Part shown: positions 4,058 through 26,651 of the stretch, piece by piece | How positions within the stretch are numbered: position 1 is the stretch's first letter | How the letters are laid out: every line of letters begins with the position of its first letter | Origin: an uncultured Prevotellaceae bacterium | GTDB lineage: Bacteria; Bacteroidota; Bacteroidia; Bacteroidales; Bacteroidaceae | Direction of reading: 5' to 3' | NCBI GenBank assembly: GCA_902801375.1 | Contig: CADCIB010000029.1 | Span: forward strand, 1-33,917 | DNA length: 33,917 bases | Notes under the pieces: model-generated | Seen by the model: the letters and a program-made list of their open reading frames with translations, nothing else | What the model was told of the DNA's origin: nothing | Databases searched by the model: none | Position numbers and translations under genes: made by a program

Positions 4058-6589
4058 TTAGAACCTCAGCGTCAGGCTGCCCATAGCGGTGAAGCCAGCC
4101 GACGGGATGAAGCCTATCTGATAATAGCGGTTGTCGTTGGTGTGGCCGTAGCTTTCAGCGATGGCGGAATAGACCCATCCTGAGGAAGCATAGCGGCGGT
4201 TGAAGATGTTGCCGAGGTTTAGGCCAAACACCATCTCCTTCACGCCAGCGTGCTTCAGTCCGAGCGTGTAGCTCAGATTCACATCGGTACGGGCGAAGCA
4301 GGGCAGTGAGCGAGAGCGGTTCTCCGTATTGTCGAGATACTGACGACTGACGTAGTTGGTGTGCCACACGGCTTGGAATCCTTTGTGGTGGAAATTCACG
4401 AAACCATTCAGGATGACCGACGGCGAGAAGGCCAGCGTGGCATCGTTGTAGTGGAACTCGCGCAGTTCGTCGCCGTTGCCGTCGATATGATAATGCTCGA
4501 TAGCATACTGGCGTGCGGCTTCATCCTTGCCATAGTTGTAGTCGTCCCAGTCTTCCACATATTCGGAAAAATCCTTCAGCTTGTTCTCGCTCAGCGCGGC
4601 ATTGCCCTCAAGGGTCAGACAGGGCAGGATGTCCCAGGCTGCCGTCAGCTCGATGCCCATGCGGTAGGAGTCCTTGATGTTGGTGGTGAGAAACTCGCCT
4701 ATCTCACTCTTCAAGCCTGTCTGCACAAACTGGTCGGTGTAGTCCATGTAGTAGAGGGTCATTCCTGCACGGAAGGTAGGAGTGCCAAAGGTGTAGCCCA
4801 GCTCATAGTCGAGCAGCGATTCTGCCTTCGGTGCTGGGTAGTTGCCGTTGTCGGTGAAGTTGTTGCGCTCTGGCTCACGATGGCTGAGGGCCATAGAGAA
4901 GAAGGCGCGATGCGGTCCGTGGTGGTAGCTCAGGCCAGCCTTGGGGTTGAAGAAGTCGTACTTCTTGTCGATGTCGAGGTAATGCTTTTCGCACAAGCCT
5001 GTACTGCTGTTGCTGATATACTTGTCATTGTAACCGCCTGTGATGTAGGCCACGTGGCGATACTGCAAGTCGCCGAAAACATCGAAATCGTAGTTGATGT
5101 GATAGGTGCCCTTGATGAAAATGTTGCCGTCAAACTTGTCGGCATCAGAGTCATAGTATTGATAGTTGCCACGGCTCATGACCAGCTGGCGCAGAATGTC
5201 ATTGCTGATATAGAGCGCATGCCCCCTGTTGTGTCCATGGAACTGTTGGAACGACACACCGCCGATGACGTCTCTTTTGCTGTCGTGGTAGTTCAGGTTC
5301 CACAGCGCGCCGTAGGTGTTCTGCCTCAAAGCCTTCTTGCGTACCCAGTCGGTGCGCTTCACGCCCTGCAGGTCAGGGTAGTCGGCATTGGGAAGGCCCA
5401 GTTTCTTGACCTTGTTGTCGCTGCGAAACTCTTTGTAGTAGCCGTAGCCGTGGGTGTAATGGAGCGAAGCCGTCGACTTCCAGTGTTCGTTGATGTCCCA
5501 AGCAGCCGAAAGGATGTTGTGGTTCTGCCAGAAGTTATCGGTGGTCTTGTCCCACGGCTTGCCATTGTTCATCTGGTAGCGTTCAGTCTGGTAGTTGCCG
5601 TTGGCATCGCGTGCGAAACTGCCGTTCTCATCATAGCAGAGATGCTCATAGAGGCTGTTGTAGCGACCCAGTCCCACGTTGTATAGGTCTTTGTAGGTCT
5701 TGATGCCCGTGTTGGCGCCGTAGATTCCGTCCATCAGACTGAGGTCGTCGTTGCCTGCCGTCACGCCGTTCCAGGCCTGCCCGGTCTTCTCGAAGTTGCC
5801 GATGTTTTTGTATCGGATGACAAAATCATCCGACACGTAACTCAGGCCGCCATAATAGCTGCCGCTGCGGCCGCTGGTTCCGTGGATGAATCCGTCGGTG
5901 TTGGTCTCATGGTAGGCTCCATCGAAGACGAGATGGTCCCAGAGCAGACCCGTGGAGAACTGTCCGCCGAGGTGGAACGTGTTGTAGGAACCATAAGAAA
6001 CATTGACTTCTGCCGAGGGCTTCAGCGAGGGCTGGCGCGTGGAGAGGGCAATGGTTCCCCCGAAAGCGCCATCGCCATTGGTGGATGTTCCTACACCGCG
6101 CTGTATCTGCACGCCACCCAGGAGGGAAGCGTACGAGTTCATGTTGGCCCAAAAGACCGTCTGGTCCTCAGGTGAATTGAGGGGAACACCGTCGAGGGTG
6201 ACGTTGATGCGCGAACCGGCAGCGCCACGGATGCGCATATAGGTGGTGCCTGTGCCCACACCGTTCTCGCTCCAGGAGAGGATGCCGGGCGTCTGCGCAA
6301 AGAGGAAAGGCAGTTCCTTGCCCGTAGCTGAGAACTGTTGCAGTTCCTGCTTCTTGATGTTTGCCACGGCGAAGGGTGCGTCTTTCGAGGCCCAGACGCC
6401 TTTCACCACCACTTCCTGAAGTTCCTCCATGCGGAGGGAGTCAGGGGTTTCGGGCTGCTGTGATATTGCAGCATGCGAAACCATAGGCAGAGCCGATGCA
6501 CCGCCCATCATGGCATTACTAACCTTAGGCAGGGCCATAGCGCTGCCAGTCGTTGCGATGGCCAGAGCCATCATCAGTGTTTTCTTCAT
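4058..6589 (-). CDS. TonB-dependent outer-membrane receptor, probable thiamine receptor
   Basis: An 843-residue receptor of normal length. A signal peptide (residues 1 to about 40) holds an odd near-repeat, ALPKVSNA at 19-26 and ALPMVSHA at 33-40. A TonB-box-like EVVVKG follows at 59-64. The plug (about 65-180) contains MRIRGAAGSRINVTLDGVPL and the VQIQRGVGTST segment; the rest alternates as a 22-strand beta-barrel and ends in LTLRF, with the aromatic C-terminal residue needed for outer-membrane insertion. It lacks the N-terminal carboxypeptidase-like domain of SusC proteins. The TPP riboswitch in its leader and the downstream PnuT gene point to thiamine or its phosphates as ligand. Start chosen at the ATG with a signal sequence, about 50 nt after the riboswitch core. 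Confidence 0.9.
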   Translation of the reverse strand: MKKTLMMALAIATTGSAMALPKVSNAMMGGASALPMVSHAAISQQPETPDSLRMEELQEVVVKGVWASKDAPFAVANIKKQELQQFSATGKELPFLFAQTPGILSWSENGVGTGTTYMRIRGAAGSRINVTLDGVPLNSPEDQTVFWANMNSYASLLGGVQIQRGVGTSTNGDGAFGGTIALSTRQPSLKPSAEVNVSYGSYNTFHLGGQFSTGLLWDHLVFDGAYHETNTDGFIHGTSGRSGSYYGGLSYVSDDFVIRYKNIGNFEKTGQAWNGVTAGNDDLSLMDGIYGANTGIKTYKDLYNVGLGRYNSLYEHLCYDENGSFARDANGNYQTERYQMNNGKPWDKTTDNFWQNHNILSAAWDINEHWKSTASLHYTHGYGYYKEFRSDNKVKKLGLPNADYPDLQGVKRTDWVRKKALRQNTYGALWNLNYHDSKRDVIGGVSFQQFHGHNRGHALYISNDILRQLVMSRGNYQYYDSDADKFDGNIFIKGTYHINYDFDVFGDLQYRHVAYITGGYNDKYISNSSTGLCEKHYLDIDKKYDFFNPKAGLSYHHGPHRAFFSMALSHREPERNNFTDNGNYPAPKAESLLDYELGYTFGTPTFRAGMTLYYMDYTDQFVQTGLKSEIGEFLTTNIKDSYRMGIELTAAWDILPCLTLEGNAALSENKLKDFSEYVEDWDDYNYGKDEAARQYAIEHYHIDGNGDELREFHYNDATLAFSPSVILNGFVNFHHKGFQAVWHTNYVSRQYLDNTENRSRSLPCFARTDVNLSYTLGLKHAGVKEMVFGLNLGNIFNRRYASSGWVYSAIAESYGHTNDNRYYQIGFIPSAGFTAMGSLTLRF

Positions 6590-6636
6590 GTTTTTAGTTT
6601 ACCTTTAATAAATACGAATAAAGGGTTTCGCCCAGA

Positions 6637-6713
6637 ATGTTCCTACGCCGGCATTATCCGGATCAGGTCAGAGGGTATCATCTCAGCCGCGGCACCTGCC
6701 GCAGCACCCCTTA
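6637..6713 (-). promoter_or_regulatory. TPP riboswitch (THI element)
   Basis: Read on the minus strand, the leader shows the conserved parts in order: GGGGTGC (6704-6710), GGCTGAGAT with CTGAGA at 6681-6686, ACCCTCTGACCTGATCCGGA, and AATGCCGGCGTAGGAA ending near 6639. This is the classic thiamine pyrophosphate aptamer. It lies just upstream of the TonB receptor ATG at 6589, so receptor and transporter are expected to be switched off when TPP is plentiful. Confidence 0.95.
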
Positions 6714-18650: not shown

Positions 18651-18681
18651 TTTGTTTTACTCTCGACTTTTCGTAACTTTG
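18651..18681 (+). promoter_or_regulatory. Consensus promoter, probably the original purL promoter cut off by the element
   Basis: TTTG (18651-18654), 19 bp, then TAACTTTG (18674-18681). The same -7 box with the same upstream TTTTCG recurs 7,970 bp away, 34 bp before the purL start. If the 8-kb element is removed, this -33/-7 pair would drive purL directly. In the present arrangement it points into the element's gene-free left end (18682-18959), where I see no gene on this strand. Confidence 0.55.
18668..18681 (+). repeat. Candidate attL (14-bp direct repeat copy 1)
   Basis: TTTTCGTAACTTTG, identical to 26638-26651. It contains GTAACTTTG, matching the GTAnnTTTGC core used by CTnDOT-type recombinases except for the last base here (T instead of C). 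It marks the left change from GC-rich to AT-rich sequence. Confidence 0.6.
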
Positions 18682-18959: not shown

Positions 18960-19817
18960 TTAGCTAATTCCAAGCATATCAGCAACAGCGTGTTGTGAAA
19001 AGATATGGAAGTGTTCGGGGTTGTTGGCCTTTTGTTTGATAGCTTTTTCTTTCTTACTTGGACCAACTCCTTCCCCAACAATTAGGGCATTAGTCTTACC
19101 ACTAATGCTGCCTGTGACTTTGGTACCTATATCCTCAAGCCTCTTCTTTATAGTATCACGATATGCTGATTCTCCAGAGATAACACATGTTTTCCCATAA
19201 AAAGAATAATCGGTCAAGAGGTCATCCTCTAAATCCAAGCCCTCTATTGACACAGTTTGGTATCTTGTGCTTCCTGGATGAGATTTCTCTTTTGAAGGAA
19301 TATAATCTGACTTGATGTGTTGACTTACGTCTGTTCCTGCTTGAATATGAATAAAGAGTTCCGCAGTATGGCGAGCATCTTCTAATGAGTGATGATGATT
19401 TGGGAGTGATTTGCCCAAAACAGTCTTATATGACATTTCCAGCCCCTGGTGCGTAATGTCATATGTGTCTATGAACATATTGTACAAGCCTTTTAGTCCA
19501 TCAGCTTGTTCATTATAATATATATAGTTAAGGTCAGCCCCTTTATTATGACAAACAAGAAGTAAGCCTCCTATAAATTCTTTCATATCAGAATACACAT
19601 CCTTAAAAGTCGGAGAACTCTTTAGGACAGAATCTGTAATGTGCTTTAACGTTGTTTTTCCAAACAAGTTTCGAGACAAACCAGCTTTAGGGTTAATATA
19701 TGTATGATATTCTGTACACTTGCCCTCTATAACCTTTACCATGCCTATTTCGCAAACAGAAAGTGGACTATCGTCAAGTTTCTCGATGTCTATGGCTACA
19801 AAATCAACATTTTTCAT
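18960..19817 (-). CDS. DEDDh 3'-5' exonuclease fused to a BRCT domain
   Basis: 285 residues. The exonuclease part (1 to about 160) shows motif I as VAIDIE (D10, E12), motif II with HNKGAD (H90 to D95), and motif III HHHSLEDA, where H142 and D147 fit the DEDDh pattern of DnaQ/pol III epsilon-like enzymes. After a linker, residues about 205-283 form a BRCT domain: YGKTCVISGE, GTKVTGSISGKTNALIVGEG and a KKEKAIKQK helix, as in the BRCT of NAD-dependent ligase. The protein probably trims DNA or RNA ends and is targeted by BRCT. It is the last of a four-gene AT-rich minus-strand set. A role in repair or defence is possible. Confidence 0.82.
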   Translation of the reverse strand: MKNVDFVAIDIEKLDDSPLSVCEIGMVKVIEGKCTEYHTYINPKAGLSRNLFGKTTLKHITDSVLKSSPTFKDVYSDMKEFIGGLLLVCHNKGADLNYIYYNEQADGLKGLYNMFIDTYDITHQGLEMSYKTVLGKSLPNHHHSLEDARHTAELFIHIQAGTDVSQHIKSDYIPSKEKSHPGSTRYQTVSIEGLDLEDDLLTDYSFYGKTCVISGESAYRDTIKKRLEDIGTKVTGSISGKTNALIVGEGVGPSKKEKAIKQKANNPEHFHIFSQHAVADMLGIS

Positions 19818-19823
19818 AAGCTA

Positions 19824-20621
19824 TCAATTGTTTTCAAGAATATTATCTAACGTTTCTTCTAAATCAATGTCTAAATCTATTTTCAAAGAGTTGGCAGACC
19901 CTACGTGGAGTGTAAATATATCTACCTTTACTTGGTCACCTGGTCTGAACTTTGAATAAGTGATGCGTCCGTCATCTACAGCCACAATATTGTCTCTGCT
20001 ATTGTAGTAAGTCAATTTGTATTTGGGAGAATCAAGAGTATATGAGGATTTATTGGTAATAAGGAATGATCCTGTTGCCGAATCTACTAATTTTTGCCAT
20101 TTAATATGGCTTATCTCAAAGTAATCATTAGTGTAGAATTGCATTTTCATGATTACACTTGTCAATTTGCTTCTTACGGAATCTGTAACAGCACCTAATT
20201 GTTGGTCGGTTTCTGTGCCATTAGGAATCATATCGTGTCTATATGCATATTTATAGAGTTTTACATTGTCTTTGGGATAAAGGCCTTTTGAATCGACAAT
20301 CTTCATCGAATTATCATTGATGGGCTCCAGATAAAGAGAGACTTCTTTAGTGATAGGATTGTCTCCTTTTGTATATGTATTTGCAAGATTAACTTCGTAA
20401 CGATTATCTGAAATCTTTTTAACTGAGTTAATCTTATGTGAGTCCGTATGTGGGAAATAGTGTAAATGGTAAGCTAAAGGATATGCCTTTAGCATAGCCT
20501 CTTCATCGCCTTCCATAATTGCAGCAAAGAAACTTTCTGCAGTTTTTTCGCATTGGCCTATCCTCTTGTCACATGATGTAAAAAGAAGTAACACAAGAAC
20601 TGGTAAAAATAGATTCTTCAT
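19824..20621 (-). CDS. Putative lipoprotein of unknown function
   Basis: 265 residues. The N-terminus MKNLFLPVLVLLLFTSC is a signal peptide with a lipobox; C17 would be lipidated. DKR after the Cys lacks the Bacteroidota surface-export stretch of acidic residues. Residues about 22-85 (KTAESFFAAIMEGDEEAMLK) look like an NTF2-like fold; the second half (about 165-255) has alternating strands typical of a beta-sandwich. It lies 6 bp before the exonuclease gene, so they are co-transcribed, an odd pairing of an envelope protein with a nuclease. No family was recognised. Confidence 0.75.
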   Translation of the reverse strand: MKNLFLPVLVLLLFTSCDKRIGQCEKTAESFFAAIMEGDEEAMLKAYPLAYHLHYFPHTDSHKINSVKKISDNRYEVNLANTYTKGDNPITKEVSLYLEPINDNSMKIVDSKGLYPKDNVKLYKYAYRHDMIPNGTETDQQLGAVTDSVRSKLTSVIMKMQFYTNDYFEISHIKWQKLVDSATGSFLITNKSSYTLDSPKYKLTYYNSRDNIVAVDDGRITYSKFRPGDQVKVDIFTLHVGSANSLKIDLDIDLEETLDNILENN

Positions 20622-20668
20622 AACTACGATTCTTAATCAATATTGAATAAAACAGAAGTACAAACGCA

Positions 20669-21223
20669 TCAGAGGTCGTCAGTATGTTTCTTCTCAGCCT
20701 TTATCAATCCGTCCATATCTTCATAGCCAACAACAAGTTCACTCTCGTAAGGGTCATCGTTGTCAAATACAAATAGAACGATATTTCCGAGGATGTCGTC
20801 CTCATCATCAATAATCAATGCTGACAATGACTCATGACCGTTACTACTTCTTCCAGTCTTTGTATCAGCATATTTGTATTTTCTCAGAAGGTTCCTTTTA
20901 ATCTCTTTATATGCATTGTCCGCACTCGATTCGTAAACGAAATCTATTGACACTCTGACTTTATAGACAATTTTGTCATCAGGGAAATAATAGGCTTTCA
21001 AAGTGCACTCATGCCCAGAGAATCTTCCTTTAAAAGCTCTCTCGCCAACTGGGAGTTGTTTATTCTCTTTCGTGTCCAAACGATAATTCTTGGCTATCAA
21101 TTTCTGTTGAAAAGTAGCGATGTTACCTGCTATGGGGATTCCCAAAACGGTTAAATGCTTGGTTTGGCCATAGGACAGAATGGTCATCAAACAAAATAGA
21201 ACTGTTAATAATAGATTCTTCAT
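20669..21223 (-). CDS. Putative exported protein of unknown function
   Basis: 184 residues with a clear signal peptide ending near SYGQ (residues 17-20). The mature part begins TKHLTVLGIPIAGNIATFQQKL, a pattern seen in small Bacteroidota periplasmic proteins in which a short strand and helix are followed by several strands. The acidic IIDDEDDILG and VFDNDDPYES stretches might bind metal. No Cys follows the signal peptide, so it should be soluble. It is 47 bp upstream of the lipoprotein gene in the same direction. I do not recognise the family. Confidence 0.72.
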   Translation of the reverse strand: MKNLLLTVLFCLMTILSYGQTKHLTVLGIPIAGNIATFQQKLIAKNYRLDTKENKQLPVGERAFKGRFSGHECTLKAYYFPDDKIVYKVRVSIDFVYESSADNAYKEIKRNLLRKYKYADTKTGRSSNGHESLSALIIDDEDDILGNIVLFVFDNDDPYESELVVGYEDMDGLIKAEKKHTDDL

Positions 21224-21277
21224 AATATAATCTTACTTTTCTATATAAGATAATCTGTATAATTCAGCCGTAATATA

Positions 21278-21913
21278 TTACCAGTCAGAGTTAGATGACA
21301 AACCAGTAATGATTTTGGAAACATGATTATTAAATTTGTCCTCAAGGATTTTGGTAAATTCAGGTTTTAATTCATGTAATAATGAATACATTTTATTCAG
21401 ATCAATATTGAAATAGTCATAAATACCCGAACCTGCATATCTTCTTTCAGTTATATTAGAAATAGAAGGAGAGCACACTTTTATTTTACCTTCCTTATAT
21501 TCTATCTTAATATTATAGTTAAAATTGTAATCGTATACAAAGTCTTTAGTCGAATACCAACATGCATTTGATTCATGTGCGTTCAAGTTGATGATATTAT
21601 CTCCTAATGTTGATATAACTTTACTGGGATTGGAATACATGTCTGATAAAGCACTAACAACTGAAGATTTAATATCATTTACAGACTTTCCTGGAGCCGA
21701 AATGACTATAAAATCTTTTCCGTCTACGTCATTGACAAAGCCCTTAGTCCAATCAAACTTGAACTTGCCATTTGCAGATGGTGGCACAACCGGTTCCTTG
21801 GCGGGAGTAGTTGTCTTGGCTTTTCTGACAGATTTCGCTGTTCTTTTTGTTTGTGCATCACCGACAATGGCTAAAGACAAACATGCAATTAAAAGTAATA
21901 CTGTTTTTCTCAT
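21278..21913 (-). CDS. Putative exported protein, DUF4468-like
   Basis: 211 residues from the ATG at 21913, which gives a signal peptide (MRKTVLLLIACLSLAIVGDAQ); the longer frame upstream runs through the inverted-repeat region and lacks coding character. After a basic Thr/Pro linker (about 22-45) the mature domain FDWTKGFVNDVDGKDFIVIS with YNFNYNIKIEYKEGKIKV resembles the TBP-like DUF4468 domain of Bacteroidota. It is first of the minus-strand set of four and has a possible long leader (21914 to about 22178). Confidence 0.7.
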   Translation of the reverse strand: MRKTVLLLIACLSLAIVGDAQTKRTAKSVRKAKTTTPAKEPVVPPSANGKFKFDWTKGFVNDVDGKDFIVISAPGKSVNDIKSSVVSALSDMYSNPSKVISTLGDNIINLNAHESNACWYSTKDFVYDYNFNYNIKIEYKEGKIKVCSPSISNITERRYAGSGIYDYFNIDLNKMYSLLHELKPEFTKILEDKFNNHVSKIITGLSSNSDW

Positions 21914-21962: not shown

Positions 21963-22101
21963 CGTGAGCAATCTACTTCGCTTACGTTTCTGAGGCATTG
22001 GGGATAGCCTATCACCTTAAACGAGTAAATGCCCACGCCGAGCGGCGTGAACAATCTACTTCAGTTCTTGGTGATTCATCTAATTCCCCAATTATCAGAA
22101 A
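21963..22101. repeat. Nested inverted repeats and 16-bp direct repeats in a divergent intergenic region
   Basis: The 394-bp gap 21914-22307 holds: a hairpin CGTGAGC/GCTTACG (21963-21986); a long imperfect inverted repeat whose arms are 21987-22016 and 22070-22101; a central perfect stem CACGCCG/CGGCGTG (22034-22049); and two copies of GTGARCAATCTACTTC at 21964-21979 and 22047-22062. The arrangement may fold as RNA or DNA cruciform. Its function is unknown. Confidence 0.65.
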
Positions 22102-22184: not shown

Positions 22185-22192
22185 CAAAATTA
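22185..22192 (-). promoter_or_regulatory. Possible -7 promoter for the minus-strand exported-protein set
   Basis: TAATTTTG on the minus strand. If used, the transcript would carry a leader of about 265 nt that includes the nested inverted repeats. Confidence 0.35.
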
Positions 22193-22254
22193 CTCAAACT
22201 TTGCCACATAACCAAACAATTTGTATTAAATAAGGTGTTTTTGTCTATTTATTC

Positions 22255-22285
22255 TTTGCCCTTTGCTAGAAAATACTTAATTTTG
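22255..22285 (+). promoter_or_regulatory. Consensus promoter of the ATPase-nuclease pair
   Basis: TTTG (22255-22258), exactly 19 bp, then TAATTTTG (22278-22285). The transcript would start about 16 bp before the ATPase ATG at 22308. Confidence 0.75.
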
Positions 22286-22307: not shown

Positions 22308-23483
22308 ATGGCAGAGAATCAAAAAGAAAGACTTATAGTGAGGAATTTTGGTCCTATAAGTAATCTGGACATTGAAATTCGTCCCTTGACACTATTCATT
22401 GGCACACAAGGCAGTGGAAAGAGTACAATATCAAAGTTGCTGACTATTTGCCGAGATTTACGATGGTGGTTATTGTTATTAGAGAATGCAGAATCTGAAA
22501 AGATTATGAAACCTTTTTATGATTTTGCCATCAATGAGTTTTTCCAAGAGGATAGTTATATTTATTACACAGTAAATGGAGGTATCTTAAGATATGAACA
22601 TGGAATCTTTAGCTTCAAATCTGAGGTAGTTGATGCTGACATCATAAAAGAATATATTAGTTATTCGAATACAAAACTGATGCATAATTCTCTCGTTCCT
22701 ATTAGTGAGACGGAGGATAAGCTTTCAAATAATATAATGGATGCCAATGCGCGCATGATACTCTATATTTTGGCAGAACGCAATCTTGTAGGAAACCTGT
22801 CGGAATCATTGGCTTCAATGCTGACGGCACAAGTGCCCCTGCCTAAGCCGATGATGGAATATATGAGTATGTTCGAAAGAGCAAAGAAGGAATATCCGAC
22901 ATATAACATTCCATTCTTTGGAGTGAAATTCATAAAGAAAGAAGGACGAGAACGAATTGAACTGCAAGGAAAGAACAAGGATTTACCCCTTAGCGCATGT
23001 TCTTCTGGCTTGCAATCTGCCATCCCGATGTTAATGGTAATAGACTACGCTTTAAAGATGGAATGCTTTGACGCATTTGTCATTGAAGAACCAGAGCAGA
23101 ATCTTTTCCCGGAGAATCAATTTGAAATCCTTGGTTTCATCACTTCAAAATTTTGGGTAAAAGAGCAGTGTCAATTTGTCATTACCACCCACAGTCCCTA
23201 TATGCTTTCGAGTCTGAATGTCTTAATGTTGGCGTATAGGCTCCATCAAAATGAGGATGTACGTGAGCGGGTAGATGAAATCGTAAAGCCTGGATTTACT
23301 GTCAATCCAGATAATGTGGCTGTATATTCACTCTATCCTGATGGTAAGGAGTATTGTAGGAGTTTGATTTCGGAAAAGACAGGACTTGTATCTGTAAACG
23401 AACTGGATTCTGTATCGGAGATTATTGGCGATGATTTTGAACGTCTTTATTCTCTATACCTTCAAACCAAGAAAAAGAAGTAG
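22308..23483 (+). CDS. AAA15/OLD-like ABC-type ATPase (candidate defence ATPase)
   Basis: 391 residues. It begins LIVRNFGPISNLDIEIRPLT, the usual start of RecF/OLD-type ATPases, with Walker A GTQGSGKST (32-40). The SSGLQSAIPML segment (about 228-238) is the ABC-signature-like region, AFVIEEPEQNLFP is Walker B with the catalytic Glu pair, and VITTHSPYML is the H-switch. The middle, about 55-210, is a variable helical insertion. There is no C-terminal TOPRIM domain, which separates it from OLD nucleases; the effector is probably the next gene, 5 bp downstream. ATPases of this type in two-gene sets often sense phage or damaged DNA. Function here is inferred. Confidence 0.85.
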   Translation: MAENQKERLIVRNFGPISNLDIEIRPLTLFIGTQGSGKSTISKLLTICRDLRWWLLLLENAESEKIMKPFYDFAINEFFQEDSYIYYTVNGGILRYEHGIFSFKSEVVDADIIKEYISYSNTKLMHNSLVPISETEDKLSNNIMDANARMILYILAERNLVGNLSESLASMLTAQVPLPKPMMEYMSMFERAKKEYPTYNIPFFGVKFIKKEGRERIELQGKNKDLPLSACSSGLQSAIPMLMVIDYALKMECFDAFVIEEPEQNLFPENQFEILGFITSKFWVKEQCQFVITTHSPYMLSSLNVLMLAYRLHQNEDVRERVDEIVKPGFTVNPDNVAVYSLYPDGKEYCRSLISEKTGLVSVNELDSVSEIIGDDFERLYSLYLQTKKKK

Positions 23484-23488
23484 ATGAT

Positions 23489-24067
23489 ATGGCAGTAAAC
23501 CAAGCGGCTATAGACCATTTGAGGCTTGACGAGGCTTTCGATATAGAGACATACAAACCGTTTAACGACTGTTGGACGGTAAAGATGGACAGAGAACTAA
23601 TGGTAGTTGATGATGACATCGAAAAAGTGTCTCGTTTCTCTGATGATGAGGCAGAACTCCAAAGGGCCTTACTCGTAATCAATGAGAACTATCGACAGAT
23701 TGTCTTATTATCTATTGACAACAAACTTATTAAAGAACATGAAGGTGGTATTGCCGATAGCGCATTGTTTGATGAAGAACAATTTCGATTTATCGAATTC
23801 AAGACCAATGCTTATGGCAACTCTGAGCAAGCGGTCAGGGATACATTTGACAAAGCTACAGATCAATTAAAGGAAACCATTCATGTCTTTAAGGACAGAT
23901 TACAGAAAGTAAACATTCAGTTTGAAGATGCTGTTACTTTGAGTTGCCATATCGTCATTTCTCATAGATTTCCCAAAAGCAGAGCAGTAAAACAAGAATA
24001 TCAAATTCGCTTTGCAGATGATAATGACAACATTCCATTGTCTTTTGCAGAAAAGACTTATTGGTAA
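23489..24067 (+). CDS. Small protein with PD-(D/E)XK-like motif, partner of the ATPase
   Basis: 192 residues, no signal peptide or membrane segment. A possible nuclease core is EHEGGIAD (83-90) followed by FIEFKTNAYG (101-110): D90, E103 and K105 would form the D...ExK triad, with 13 residues between D and E. The helix after it (SEQAVRDTFDKATDQLKETI) fits the alpha-helix that follows the ExK strand in PD-(D/E)XK folds. The N-terminal DNKLIKEHE context supplies a preceding acid. It starts 5 bp after the ATPase stop, so the two are translated together and probably work together. I do not recognise the family; a non-catalytic partner is the alternative. Confidence 0.7.
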   Translation: MAVNQAAIDHLRLDEAFDIETYKPFNDCWTVKMDRELMVVDDDIEKVSRFSDDEAELQRALLVINENYRQIVLLSIDNKLIKEHEGGIADSALFDEEQFRFIEFKTNAYGNSEQAVRDTFDKATDQLKETIHVFKDRLQKVNIQFEDAVTLSCHIVISHRFPKSRAVKQEYQIRFADDNDNIPLSFAEKTYW

Positions 24068-24296: not shown

Positions 24297-24339
24297 CAGA
24301 AAGGAATTTTCAGAATGAGCCTATCTAGAAAATGTGTCA

Positions 24340-24347
24340 TACCTTTG
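24340..24347 (+). promoter_or_regulatory. Candidate -7 promoter for the HTH gene pair
   Basis: TACCTTTG followed by C, 29 bp before the ATG at 24377; no TTTG at the usual distance. Confidence 0.6.
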
Positions 24348-24376
24348 CGCTCAAATATCACAAAACTAAACAAGAC

Positions 24377-24697
24377 ATGGAAGTAATTTCAATTGAGCGC
24401 AGTACCTATGAGGAACTGCTGACGAGCTTCAATAGCTTCGTCACACAAATGAGAGCAATGGCAGATAGAGGCACAGACAAAAGGTTAGGCGATTGGCTTG
24501 ATAACCAAGACGTGTGCCAGATGCTGAACATCAGTCCAAGAACATTACAAACGCTTCGTGACAACGGAACGTTGGCCTATTCTCAAATCAACCGTAAGGT
24601 ATACTATAAGCCTGAGGATGTGGAGAGTATTCTTCATGTTGTGGCTGGTAGGGATAAAGATGGCAAGGTGTATAACCTCAAAACGAAGTGCCTATGA
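24377..24697 (+). CDS. Excisionase-like helix-turn-helix protein
   Basis: 106 residues from the ATG at 24377, which follows the promoter box. The HTH_17-type domain is at about 40-88: LDNQDVCQMLNISPRTLQTL gives the helix-turn-helix, and the strand pair around KVYYKPEDVESIL gives the wing. The first 30 residues form an amphipathic helix. Pairs of such proteins lie beside tyrosine recombinases in Bacteroides mobilisable and conjugative transposons, where they control excision. The stop overlaps the next start. Confidence 0.85.
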   Translation: MEVISIERSTYEELLTSFNSFVTQMRAMADRGTDKRLGDWLDNQDVCQMLNISPRTLQTLRDNGTLAYSQINRKVYYKPEDVESILHVVAGRDKDGKVYNLKTKCL

Positions 24698-24987
24698 ACG
24701 AACTGATAATGCCGCATAACGTTGGAGTGAAGAACGCAGTGGAGAACATGGAGGAGGTGCTTGCCCTATACAAGAATGTGATAGGCTGCTATCGCCCGTT
24801 GCTTGATGGTGAACGTTACCTGACGGACAGAGAAGTAGCGCAGATTCTGAAAGTCAGCAGACGGACGCTACAAGAATATCGTAATGATGGCATGCTGCCT
24901 TATATATTAGGTGGCAAGGTGCTCTATCGTGAGAGTGATTTGGAGAGGGTTCTGGAAAGTTGCTATCATCCCGCATATAAACGATAG
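24694..24987 (+). CDS. Second excisionase-like helix-turn-helix protein
   Basis: 97 residues. The ATG at 24694 overlaps the preceding TGA (ATGA), a sign of translational coupling, and is preferred to a GTG two codons upstream. The winged HTH is at about 43-86: LTDREVAQILKVSRRTLQEY, then GGKVLYRESDLERVL. It is a diverged relative of the protein before it. With the recombinase convergent downstream, it probably helps excision of the element. Confidence 0.85.
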   Translation: MNELIMPHNVGVKNAVENMEEVLALYKNVIGCYRPLLDGERYLTDREVAQILKVSRRTLQEYRNDGMLPYILGGKVLYRESDLERVLESCYHPAYKR

Positions 24988-25104: not shown

Positions 25105-26325
25105 CTATGCCATCTTAAGATTCTTGAATGATGCATTGAGTTTATTGCCGAGCATCGTCAGGTCATTGTCAAGTTTCTGGCTCGTGATTTTGGCATAAAT
25201 CTGGGTGGTCACGATATTGGTGTGTCCCAATACACGGCTCACGCTCTCGATGGGCATTCCCTTTGAAAACGCCAAAGTGGCGAACGAGTGCCGGCCACAA
25301 TGGTAAGATATGGCTTTTTCTATGCCGCAGGCTGTCATCACCGTTTTCAACTTCTTGCACATCGACCAGTAGTTCATCTTGCCGAACACCAGTTTGTCTT
25401 CCTGTAGGTGCTTGTAGCGGTCGATAATCTGCAAGGGAACGTCCATCAGTTTCACCTGGAAGGGGATGTTGGTTTTGTGACGCTTGCTGATAATCCACTT
25501 GTCACCGTTGATGTCTACGATGTTGTCCGTGGTCAGGTTCTTCACGTCGATGAACGAGAGGGCGGTGAAGCACACGAATACAAAAATGTCACGCACGAAG
25601 GCGAGATTGTCATCCTCGAACTCATGGGTTACGACGGCTTTCAGTTCATCCTCAGACAAGAACTCCCTTTCCTTGCAGTTCGGGCTGATATGGAACTGGG
25701 CGAACGGGTTACGGGGAATCTTGCCGTTGTAGTGCGCCCTCAGCACGACACCTTTTAGCCACATACACCGCTGCCAGATGGTGCCATTAGCCAGTCCACG
25801 GTCTGTGCTGAGGTAGGCGGCAAAGTCCTTGATGAACTCAGGTGTCAGTTCCAGCATCGACATATCCGTGCGACGGTAGTACGACTGGATGAACTCTGCC
25901 ACATCCTTCCGCGAACGCTCCATAGCCCAAAGAGTGCTCGCCGCTCTGTCCTTGCCCACACGTTTCTTCTGGTTGGCAATGTCCTTGTCGAAAGCACTCA
26001 GCAGCGTTTCGTACTCGCTGCCGAAACCCTGATAGGAGTTGCGCACCATCTCTTCCGTAACAAAAGCCTCGCGGTCTGACAGGTGCTGATAATGTTTGAT
26101 AATCTGTGCCTTGATGTTATCCAGTTCGCGGTTAATCTGCAAAGCCTCCTTGCTACGCCCCTTGGCACAATTGCCCTTCACGTCCCACATATCAAGCGAG
26201 ACCGACTTCTTGCAACTGAACTGGCTCTGGGTTCCGTTAATCGTTACCCTGCCCATCACTGGCACCACACCATTCTTCTCCTTACTCTTGTTCACATAGA
26301 ACAGAATGTTAAAAGTACTTCTCAT
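25105..26325 (-). CDS. IntDOT-like tyrosine recombinase
   Basis: 406 residues from the ATG at 26325, preceded by AGGAG; the 66 codons upstream in the same frame look non-coding. The N-terminal arm-binding part (1 to about 100) has the STFNILFYVNKSKEKNG start of Bacteroidota integrases; a SAM-like core-binding domain follows (about 105-205), then the catalytic domain. Active-site residues seen: K284, H342 and R345 in YHCGRH, H368 in LGHTN and the nucleophile Y377 in TTQIYAKI. The usual first Arg is replaced: FTALSFID has S257 there, as known for IntDOT of CTnDOT. It should integrate and excise the element at GTAnnTTTGC-type sites. Its gene lies 318 bp from the proposed right end. Confidence 0.92.
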   Translation of the reverse strand: MRSTFNILFYVNKSKEKNGVVPVMGRVTINGTQSQFSCKKSVSLDMWDVKGNCAKGRSKEALQINRELDNIKAQIIKHYQHLSDREAFVTEEMVRNSYQGFGSEYETLLSAFDKDIANQKKRVGKDRAASTLWAMERSRKDVAEFIQSYYRRTDMSMLELTPEFIKDFAAYLSTDRGLANGTIWQRCMWLKGVVLRAHYNGKIPRNPFAQFHISPNCKEREFLSEDELKAVVTHEFEDDNLAFVRDIFVFVCFTALSFIDVKNLTTDNIVDINGDKWIISKRHKTNIPFQVKLMDVPLQIIDRYKHLQEDKLVFGKMNYWSMCKKLKTVMTACGIEKAISYHCGRHSFATLAFSKGMPIESVSRVLGHTNIVTTQIYAKITSQKLDNDLTMLGNKLNASFKNLKMA

Positions 26326-26354
26326 GTTTCTTACTCCTTTTTTAATTTTGGCTG

Positions 26355-26362
26355 CAAAACTA
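26355..26362 (-). promoter_or_regulatory. Possible -7 promoter for the recombinase gene
   Basis: TAGTTTTG on the minus strand, 29 bp before the ATG at 26325. The 359-bp gap 26326-26684 otherwise holds only the right att candidate and the purL -7 box; no gene is seen. Confidence 0.45.
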
Positions 26363-26637
26363 CTATTTCTTTTGGCATCCATCGCTATGCAAAATGTAGC
26401 AGTTTGCGGAATAAGAAACTGGCGGTGAAAGGTGCCCCATTCTTCACCATTTTGCGTGATAACTTTACTCGGCTCCAAGGACATAAATTGGGTTACGAAT
26501 AAGAAACCTAACTCATTCATCAATCCTCCCCAATTTGCTTTTAGTCCCTATTTGAACTTCCTCATTCTGCCCCGTCTTGCCTTTATTACAGGCCGAATTG
26601 CGTTAATTCTCCAAAATCCGTTGCTCTTTACAAGCTT

Positions 26638-26651
26638 TTTTCGTAACTTTG
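26638..26651 (+). repeat. Candidate attR (14-bp direct repeat copy 2), also the purL -7 box
   Basis: TTTTCGTAACTTTG followed by C gives the full GTAACTTTGC core of IntDOT-type sites. TAACTTTG at 26644-26651 is also the promoter -7 element nearest to purL, 33 bp before its ATG. No TTTG lies 19-21 bp upstream, as expected if that part was displaced by the insertion. Confidence 0.6.

Follow-up and report, generated by a model that had tools for sequence, protein, structure and literature searches.

What do two adjacent genes do that, in an uncultured Prevotellaceae bacterium, encode an ATPase and a small protein with nuclease-like residues? The genes, here called A and B, lie in a stretch of 33,917 nt of contig CADCIB010000029.1 (GenBank assembly GCA_902801375.1), the whole of which is referred to as the window. 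A sequence-only reading of the window had proposed a two-gene phage-defense pair with an effector unlike the partners known. Our analysis indicates that A and B very probably form an anti-phage operon for an OLD-like ATPase without a TOPRIM domain and a PD-(D/E)XK-type nuclease. The proposal of an ATPase–nuclease defense pair is borne out by the conserved pairing of the genes, by intact motifs, and by matches of both proteins to the models of PDC-M29, a candidate system of PADLOC; the defense role itself is assigned by analogy with WonAB, a system described from Vibrio cholerae. Thus, the kind of system is already known, and what is new is a member in Bacteroidota.

An ATPase and a putative nuclease encoded side by side

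Only 5 nt separate the stop codon of A from the ATG of B (Table 1), and the reading frames, their spacing, and residues K38 of A and D90, E103, and K105 of B are all where the earlier reading had placed them. Protein A matches the domain models AAA_15 (E-value 1.6e-22) and AAA_21, the domain scan gave no match to TOPRIM, and the chain stops at residue 391, so that its description as an OLD-like ATPase lacking TOPRIM holds. The Walker A motif of A contains a glutamine that recurs in 66 of 74 A-like open reading frames (ORFs), duplicates and fragments counted; the others have no motif (four), a threonine (three), or an asparagine (one). As judged from these sequences, glutamine at this position is typical of the A family. 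The ATPase models of PtuA, AriA, and GajA match A, and the folds of PtuA and AriA also resemble it.

Protein B carries the motif D90-x12-E103-x-K105. In an alignment of 23 homologues, the window's protein included, E103 and K105 are invariant, and position 90 is aspartate in 21 sequences and glutamate in two; among 32 nearer sequences, all three residues are invariant. Because E103 and K105 do not vary and the acidic character of position 90 is kept, the D/ExK pattern noticed in the sequence-only reading is beyond chance. The invariant or nearly invariant residues of B are N65, D77, D90, E103, K105, Q126, and T130, with no histidine among them.

The predicted structure of B is a confident one, with a predicted local distance difference test (pLDDT) score of 93.1. 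In this model, D90 sits at the edge of strand 91–94, E103 and K105 lie in strand 98–105, and helix 113–139 contains Q126; the predicted fold thus has the layout of PD-(D/E)XK enzymes, with a conserved aspartate, E-x-K in the next strand, and an alpha/beta core. The earlier reading had put forward a structural comparison with PD-(D/E)XK folds as a check; the model of B resembles PD-(D/E)XK nucleases, though weakly. When B and two profiles were run against the sequences of solved structures, no hit had an E-value below 0.1; predicted viral structures searched with B gave no match below 0.001, and no Pfam or NCBIfam model passed a cut-off with B. Among its relatives, one of 32 has a flavodoxin match in NCBIfam (0.0007), and Pfam matched PDDEXK_9 (0.005) in one and GumK_N (0.0085) in another of 23.

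The pairing of the two genes is strongly conserved. B was found in nine of 200 genomes of the genus and PDC-M29B matches in 29 of 395 genomes across the phylum, the window's own being counted in both. The genomes returned 39 loci, of which one (L035) duplicates the window, leaving 38 distinct loci. An A-like ORF accompanies B in 37 of these (the window among them) and is on the same strand as B in all 36 with an open B frame. The sole B locus without an A-like ORF, L038, has three internal stops in B; L032 holds fragments only, and L020 and L028 have a split A. In the named genomes, a locus set that overlaps with the genome scan and, with at least seven contigs of equal length in both, is not independent of it, A is upstream of B in 31 of 31 loci (32 pairs, L058 having two). 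All but one of the 32 pairs have an A–B gap between −23 and +15 nt. The start of B was set at the first methionine within the last 25 nt of A or later, a rule to which larger overlaps are invisible and by which the start in L070 is internal. The two pairs of L058 (2163–3878 and 6763–8582) differ from each other and are about 3 kb apart, as if pairs accumulate in one island.

When these loci and the window were run through a simple gene caller, A was recovered in all 32 sequences and B in 31 of them, and other clusters were present in at most six each, many loci in this comparison ending at contig ends. Distances between A proteins and between B proteins correlate at 0.92, a value reached in none of 2000 permutations and to which shared host history contributes. 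Nonsynonymous distances (dN) among relatives are 0.10–0.29, and synonymous distances (dS) are saturated.

Up to three genes per side were collected as neighbors (163 in all), and 124 were scanned after manual removal of short genes, of near-duplicate loci, and of several long genes. Among the best 25 of 180 families, PADLOC matches (E-values up to 1e-10) included Drt3a/Drt3b, SoFic, parts of type IIG and type II restriction systems, mad2, and PDC-S02, S04, and S72. These neighbors, scanned without a control set, are only suggestive of defense islands. Phage_integrase has at most one match among the 124, being absent from the 25 Pfam families listed, which include every family with at least two members.

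Searches of viral contigs with B returned no relative, and plasmid searches with B and with two other B relatives found none. A plasmid search with A gave three A-like records, and the one examined (L073) also has B by profile. In that record, from a Bacteroides finegoldii plasmid, the A–B pair (5124–6687) lies within a glycosyltransferase cluster, not among defense genes. Six phage records have an A-like match (E-values up to 0.01); of the two examined, L072 has A and B, and L071 is an annotated Septu pair.

Relation to PDC-M29, WonAB, and other ATPase–nuclease pairs

In PADLOC, the top match of A is PDC-M29A (1.4e-43, followed by AriA at 7.1e-24) and that of B is PDC-M29B (2.3e-9). PDC-M29A matches 33 of 33 A sequences (E-values up to 1e-5), and PDC-M29B matches 32 of 32 B sequences (E-values up to 0.1). 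B is the more telling of the two because the AriA and PDC-M56A models match all 33 A sequences as well. The window pair also shares with PDC-M29 its gene order, its size class, and adjacency on one strand, and the assignment is one of model matches and same-strand adjacency rather than of PADLOC score cut-offs and its system rule. B is a divergent member, with 35.6 bits in a range of about 25 to 210 bits among matches in the phylum's genomes. The database comparison suggested by the sequence-only reading thus places the pair with a listed candidate, and the view that the effector resembles no known partner is not supported. The name PDC-M29 was not found in the main texts of the open-license literature searched, supplements being outside that search.

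The closest characterized system is WonAB. According to the passages of PMC12137116 (2025) cited here, WonAB is encoded on the WASA-1 prophage of V. cholerae by a gene for an OLD-ABC ATPase followed by one for a 16.1-kDa PD-(D/E)xK protein, and it is a two-gene, lysis-independent abortive-infection system that arrests translation and requires both genes. Protection is lost in the K34A, R182A, E300A, and H333A variants of WonA and in K71A of WonB, overproduced WonB is toxic only with ATPase-active WonA, and WonB binds the dimerized C-terminal extension of WonA. By analogy with WonA, the conserved C-terminal extension motif of A is a candidate docking surface for B. The window pair likewise combines an OLD-ABC ATPase without TOPRIM (Walker A and B, signature, and H-loop) with a small PD-(D/E)xK nuclease encoded after it. 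In our own correspondence, the likely counterparts of WonA K34, R182, E300, and H333 are K38, R158, E260/E261, and H295 of A, and that of WonB K71 is K105 of B. Accordingly, K38, R158, E261, and H295 of A and D90 and K105 of B are the residues predicted to matter. The two systems differ in that WonB is a 16.1-kDa protein with its lysine at position 71, whereas B has 192 residues and K105, and in that WonAB is found on a prophage and in another phylum, whereas the window pair is not on a recognized prophage.

The sequences of WonAB entered this comparison through its four primers only. Three of them encode, in one of three frames, the peptides PQANGK (wonA), NCLKGS, and CDWILS (both wonB), which fit the Walker A with glutamine, the IDxCL motif, and the CDxxL motif of the family. 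Such matches are expected in random 20-mers with chances of about 0.0002, 0.005, and 0.003, for patterns written after the translations had been seen. At the spacing of these motifs in the family, however, the wonB primers would yield a product of only about 55 bp, which weighs against the assignment, and the translations of the fourth primer (wonA reverse) have no recognizable family motif. No contig was found when the exact wonA primer was searched against viral contigs. In the gut contig L072, A stands beside a B of 139 residues in which the ExK lysine is residue 69, near K71 of WonB.

The authors of that study place WonAB within a wider family in which ABC-ATPase sensors work with nuclease partners; the passages cited from PMC12137116 name PD-T4-4 and the operon of an OLD-ABC ATPase with a novel restriction endonuclease (REase), and a passage of PMC12409358 repeats this view. 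Homologues of the latter operon, from Krishnan et al. 2020, encompass all detected WonAB homologues (PMC12137116, same passages), and by the descriptions in these two sources its architecture is that of the window pair. For BREX and related loci, pairs of an OLD-ABC ATPase with a nuclease, of the PD-(D/E)XK type or another, are also described (PMC12839542, in part). With the PDC-M29 match, these precedents leave the earlier claim of an unfamiliar effector unsupported, and the claim of novelty largely fails, the kind having been described under the name WonAB. PD-T4-4 is likewise an ATPase–nuclease pair (PMC12137116, passages cited) and is listed with PD-(D/E)XK in a portion of PMC10952713; A matches PD-T4-4_A at 4e-19, but in a comparison of profiles only, B has no match to PD-T4-4_B at E-values up to 5. 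PMC12137116 gives the accessions AWB73975.1 and AWB73976.1 for WonA and WonB, SHI83489.1 and SHI83462.1 for an Anaerovibrio pair, and RCO57999.1 and RCO57988.1 for PD-T4-4.

Three other systems with related ATPases were considered and rejected. The partner in Septu is the HNH protein PtuB, whereas B has no PtuB match at E-values up to 5 and no conserved histidine for an HNH motif; PtuA of the Septu pair in L071 has asparagine where the A family has the Walker A glutamine. In PARIS, the partner is the TOPRIM/DUF4435 protein AriB, and B matches neither AriB nor TOPRIM. Gabija has TOPRIM fused to the ATPase and the helicase GajB, neither of which was seen in the scans made: A ends at residue 391 without TOPRIM, and the downstream gene is B, without a GajB match.

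It is possible, but in our judgment doubtful, that PDC-M29, WonAB, and the operons of OLD-ABC ATPase and novel REase form a single large family of nucleases licensed by ATPases, and that within it the Bacteroidales branch, with an effector that is longer in most cases, constitutes a subtype that responds to another trigger or attacks another nucleic acid. B has 172–210 residues in 31 of the 32 named-genome pairs versus 139–175 in many other relatives. These lengths overlap, however, and D41 is not special to the Bacteroidales branch, both of which weigh against a subtype. If the subtype were real, an untested database candidate would become a class amenable to experiment in bacteria that dominate the gut. 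Through this comparison, the PADLOC candidate PDC-M29 is tied to WonAB, whose abortive-infection activity has been proven by experiment, and the kind is seen to occur in Bacteroidales of the rumen and gut, Prevotella-type genomes among them.

Mode of action and competing explanations

We consider it likely that A and B represent, in Bacteroidota, the anti-phage systems of the PDC-M29/WonAB kind, and that A licenses B and growth is arrested. Sensing, the activation of B by A, the RNA target, and growth arrest are all carried over from WonAB by analogy. A, presumably as a dimer, would keep B in a controlled state until a signal of phage infection leads the ATP cycle of A to license B. With an active site formed by D90, E103, and K105, B would then cleave a nucleic acid on which the cell depends; host RNA (tRNA or rRNA), as is suspected for WonAB, is a more probable substrate than DNA, and this cleavage would stop growth and abort the phage burst.

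Alternatively, A could sense phage DNA or DNA ends in the manner of Rad50- or PtuA-like ATPases, and B could degrade phage or cell DNA as in a Septu-like system. We regard this as rather unlikely, as the nearest tested system, WonAB, leaves the chromosomal DNA intact while translation stops (PMC12137116, passages cited) and AriB of PARIS, the partner of a related ATPase, cuts tRNA (PMC12839542, in part). The tight spacing of the genes, the nuclease effector, and the probable integrative element would also suit a toxin–antitoxin pair that maintains its carrier, with B as the toxin and A as the antitoxin. The WonAB effector, however, is harmless without its ATPase, and simple sequestration is excluded by the authors (PMC12137116, passages cited); in the window, no ATPase motif of A has been lost and its gene precedes that of B, and we give this explanation a very small chance.

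A role in replication, the cell cycle, or element maintenance instead of defense has a precedent in the archaeal OLD-family ATPase Cran1, which acts in cell-cycle progression and is apparently not antiviral (PMC12796447, in part), and the pair inside the glycosyltransferase cluster of L073 points the same way. Such a role is nevertheless highly improbable given the patchy spread of the pair (nine of 200 genomes of the genus, including the window's own), the absence of widely shared neighbors, the DRT3, SoFic, and restriction genes near related pairs (seen without a control set), and a nuclease partner as in WonAB.

Promoters and the probable carrier element

Table 1. Features of the A–B locus and its surroundings, in window coordinates
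Feature	Position	Strand	Basis
14-bp direct repeat, left copy; candidate attachment (att) site	18668..18681	+	perfect repeat
Promoter-like element TTTG-N19-TAnnTTTG; probable A–B operon promoter, Bacteroidota-type	22255..22285	+	exact pattern
A: OLD/ABC-type ATPase, 391 residues, without TOPRIM; probable sensor and activator	22308..23483	+	AAA_15/AAA_21 matches
Walker A GTQGSGKS (K38) of A	22401..22424	+	Q34 and K38 nearly invariant in 33 sequences
ABC-signature-like SSGLQS (S232–S237) of A	23001..23018	+	S232, S233, G234, Q236, S237 invariant (n = 33)
Walker B acidic EEPE (E260–E263) of A	23085..23096	+	invariant (n = 33)
H-loop H295 (THSPY) of A	23190..23192	+	invariant (n = 33)
Conserved C-terminal extension motif of A (T358, N364, D367, S370, F377)	23379..23438	+	alignments
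B: PD-(D/E)XK-type nuclease, 192 residues; probable effector	23489..24067	+	PDC-M29B match, predicted fold, motif
Catalytic candidate D90 of B	23756..23758	+	alignment
Catalytic candidates E103-F-K105 of B	23795..23803	+	alignment
HTH_17 (MerR/excisionase-like) protein; probable carrier element	24332..24697	+	domain match
Second HTH_17 protein; probable carrier element	24688..24987	+	domain match
Tyrosine recombinase; probable carrier element	25105..26523	-	arm-binding, SAM-like, and catalytic domains
14-bp direct repeat, right copy, at purL promoter	26638..26651	+	perfect repeat

The promoter-like element ends 22 nt upstream of the ATG of A. Its pattern, which we take to be the Bacteroidota promoter consensus, occurs seven times in the window versus 0.25 expected from shuffles, whereas a scan for sigma70 promoters of the Escherichia coli type found 12 versus 8.5 ± 3.4 expected, near chance. 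The single consensus promoter of the sequence-only reading therefore stands as a Bacteroidota-type element directly before A and not as a sigma70 promoter. RNA structure 3' of B was no better than in shuffles.

The integrative element on which the pair had been placed is supported in part. A tyrosine recombinase is present, and a perfect 14-bp repeat brackets about 8 kb that include the pair. Both copies are also promoter-like boxes (Bacteroidota −7 box): the left retains a full TTTG-N-TAnnTTTG element (18651–18681), whereas the right is without the upstream TTTG box. The repeat resembles GTAnnTTTGC, presumably the core used by IntDOT-type recombinases, and of 11 relatives examined by eye, 10 have a TAnnTTTGC box upstream of purL. 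This pattern fits the insertion of an element into the purL promoter, the alternative being a chance likeness of promoter boxes. A search for an empty site via tsf and purL found none; purL was absent from the loci examined around tsf in relatives, and the two genes are many kb apart on one contig in some genomes. Because no empty site was found and both repeats are promoter-like boxes, the borders of the element are unproven.

Within the bracketed region, 18960–19817 (minus strand) encodes a DEDDh exonuclease fused to BRCT (RNase_T, 6e-11; BRCT, 1.4e-5), which also matches the PADLOC models DEDDh (1.5e-17) and PDC-S48 (1.8e-16) and may be a further gene for defense or repair that the element carries. 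Three proteins with signal- or lipoprotein-like starts, none above Pfam cut-offs, are encoded at 19824–21910 (minus strand). Together with the exonuclease gene, they apparently form one operon behind a second promoter-like element of the Bacteroidota type, at 22185–22216 on the opposite strand and directed at the minus-strand genes. Upstream of these divergent promoters is a 17-bp near-repeat (21963–21979 and 22046–22062, 83 bp apart), one copy of which lies, as seen by eye, within a short hairpin-like inverted repeat.
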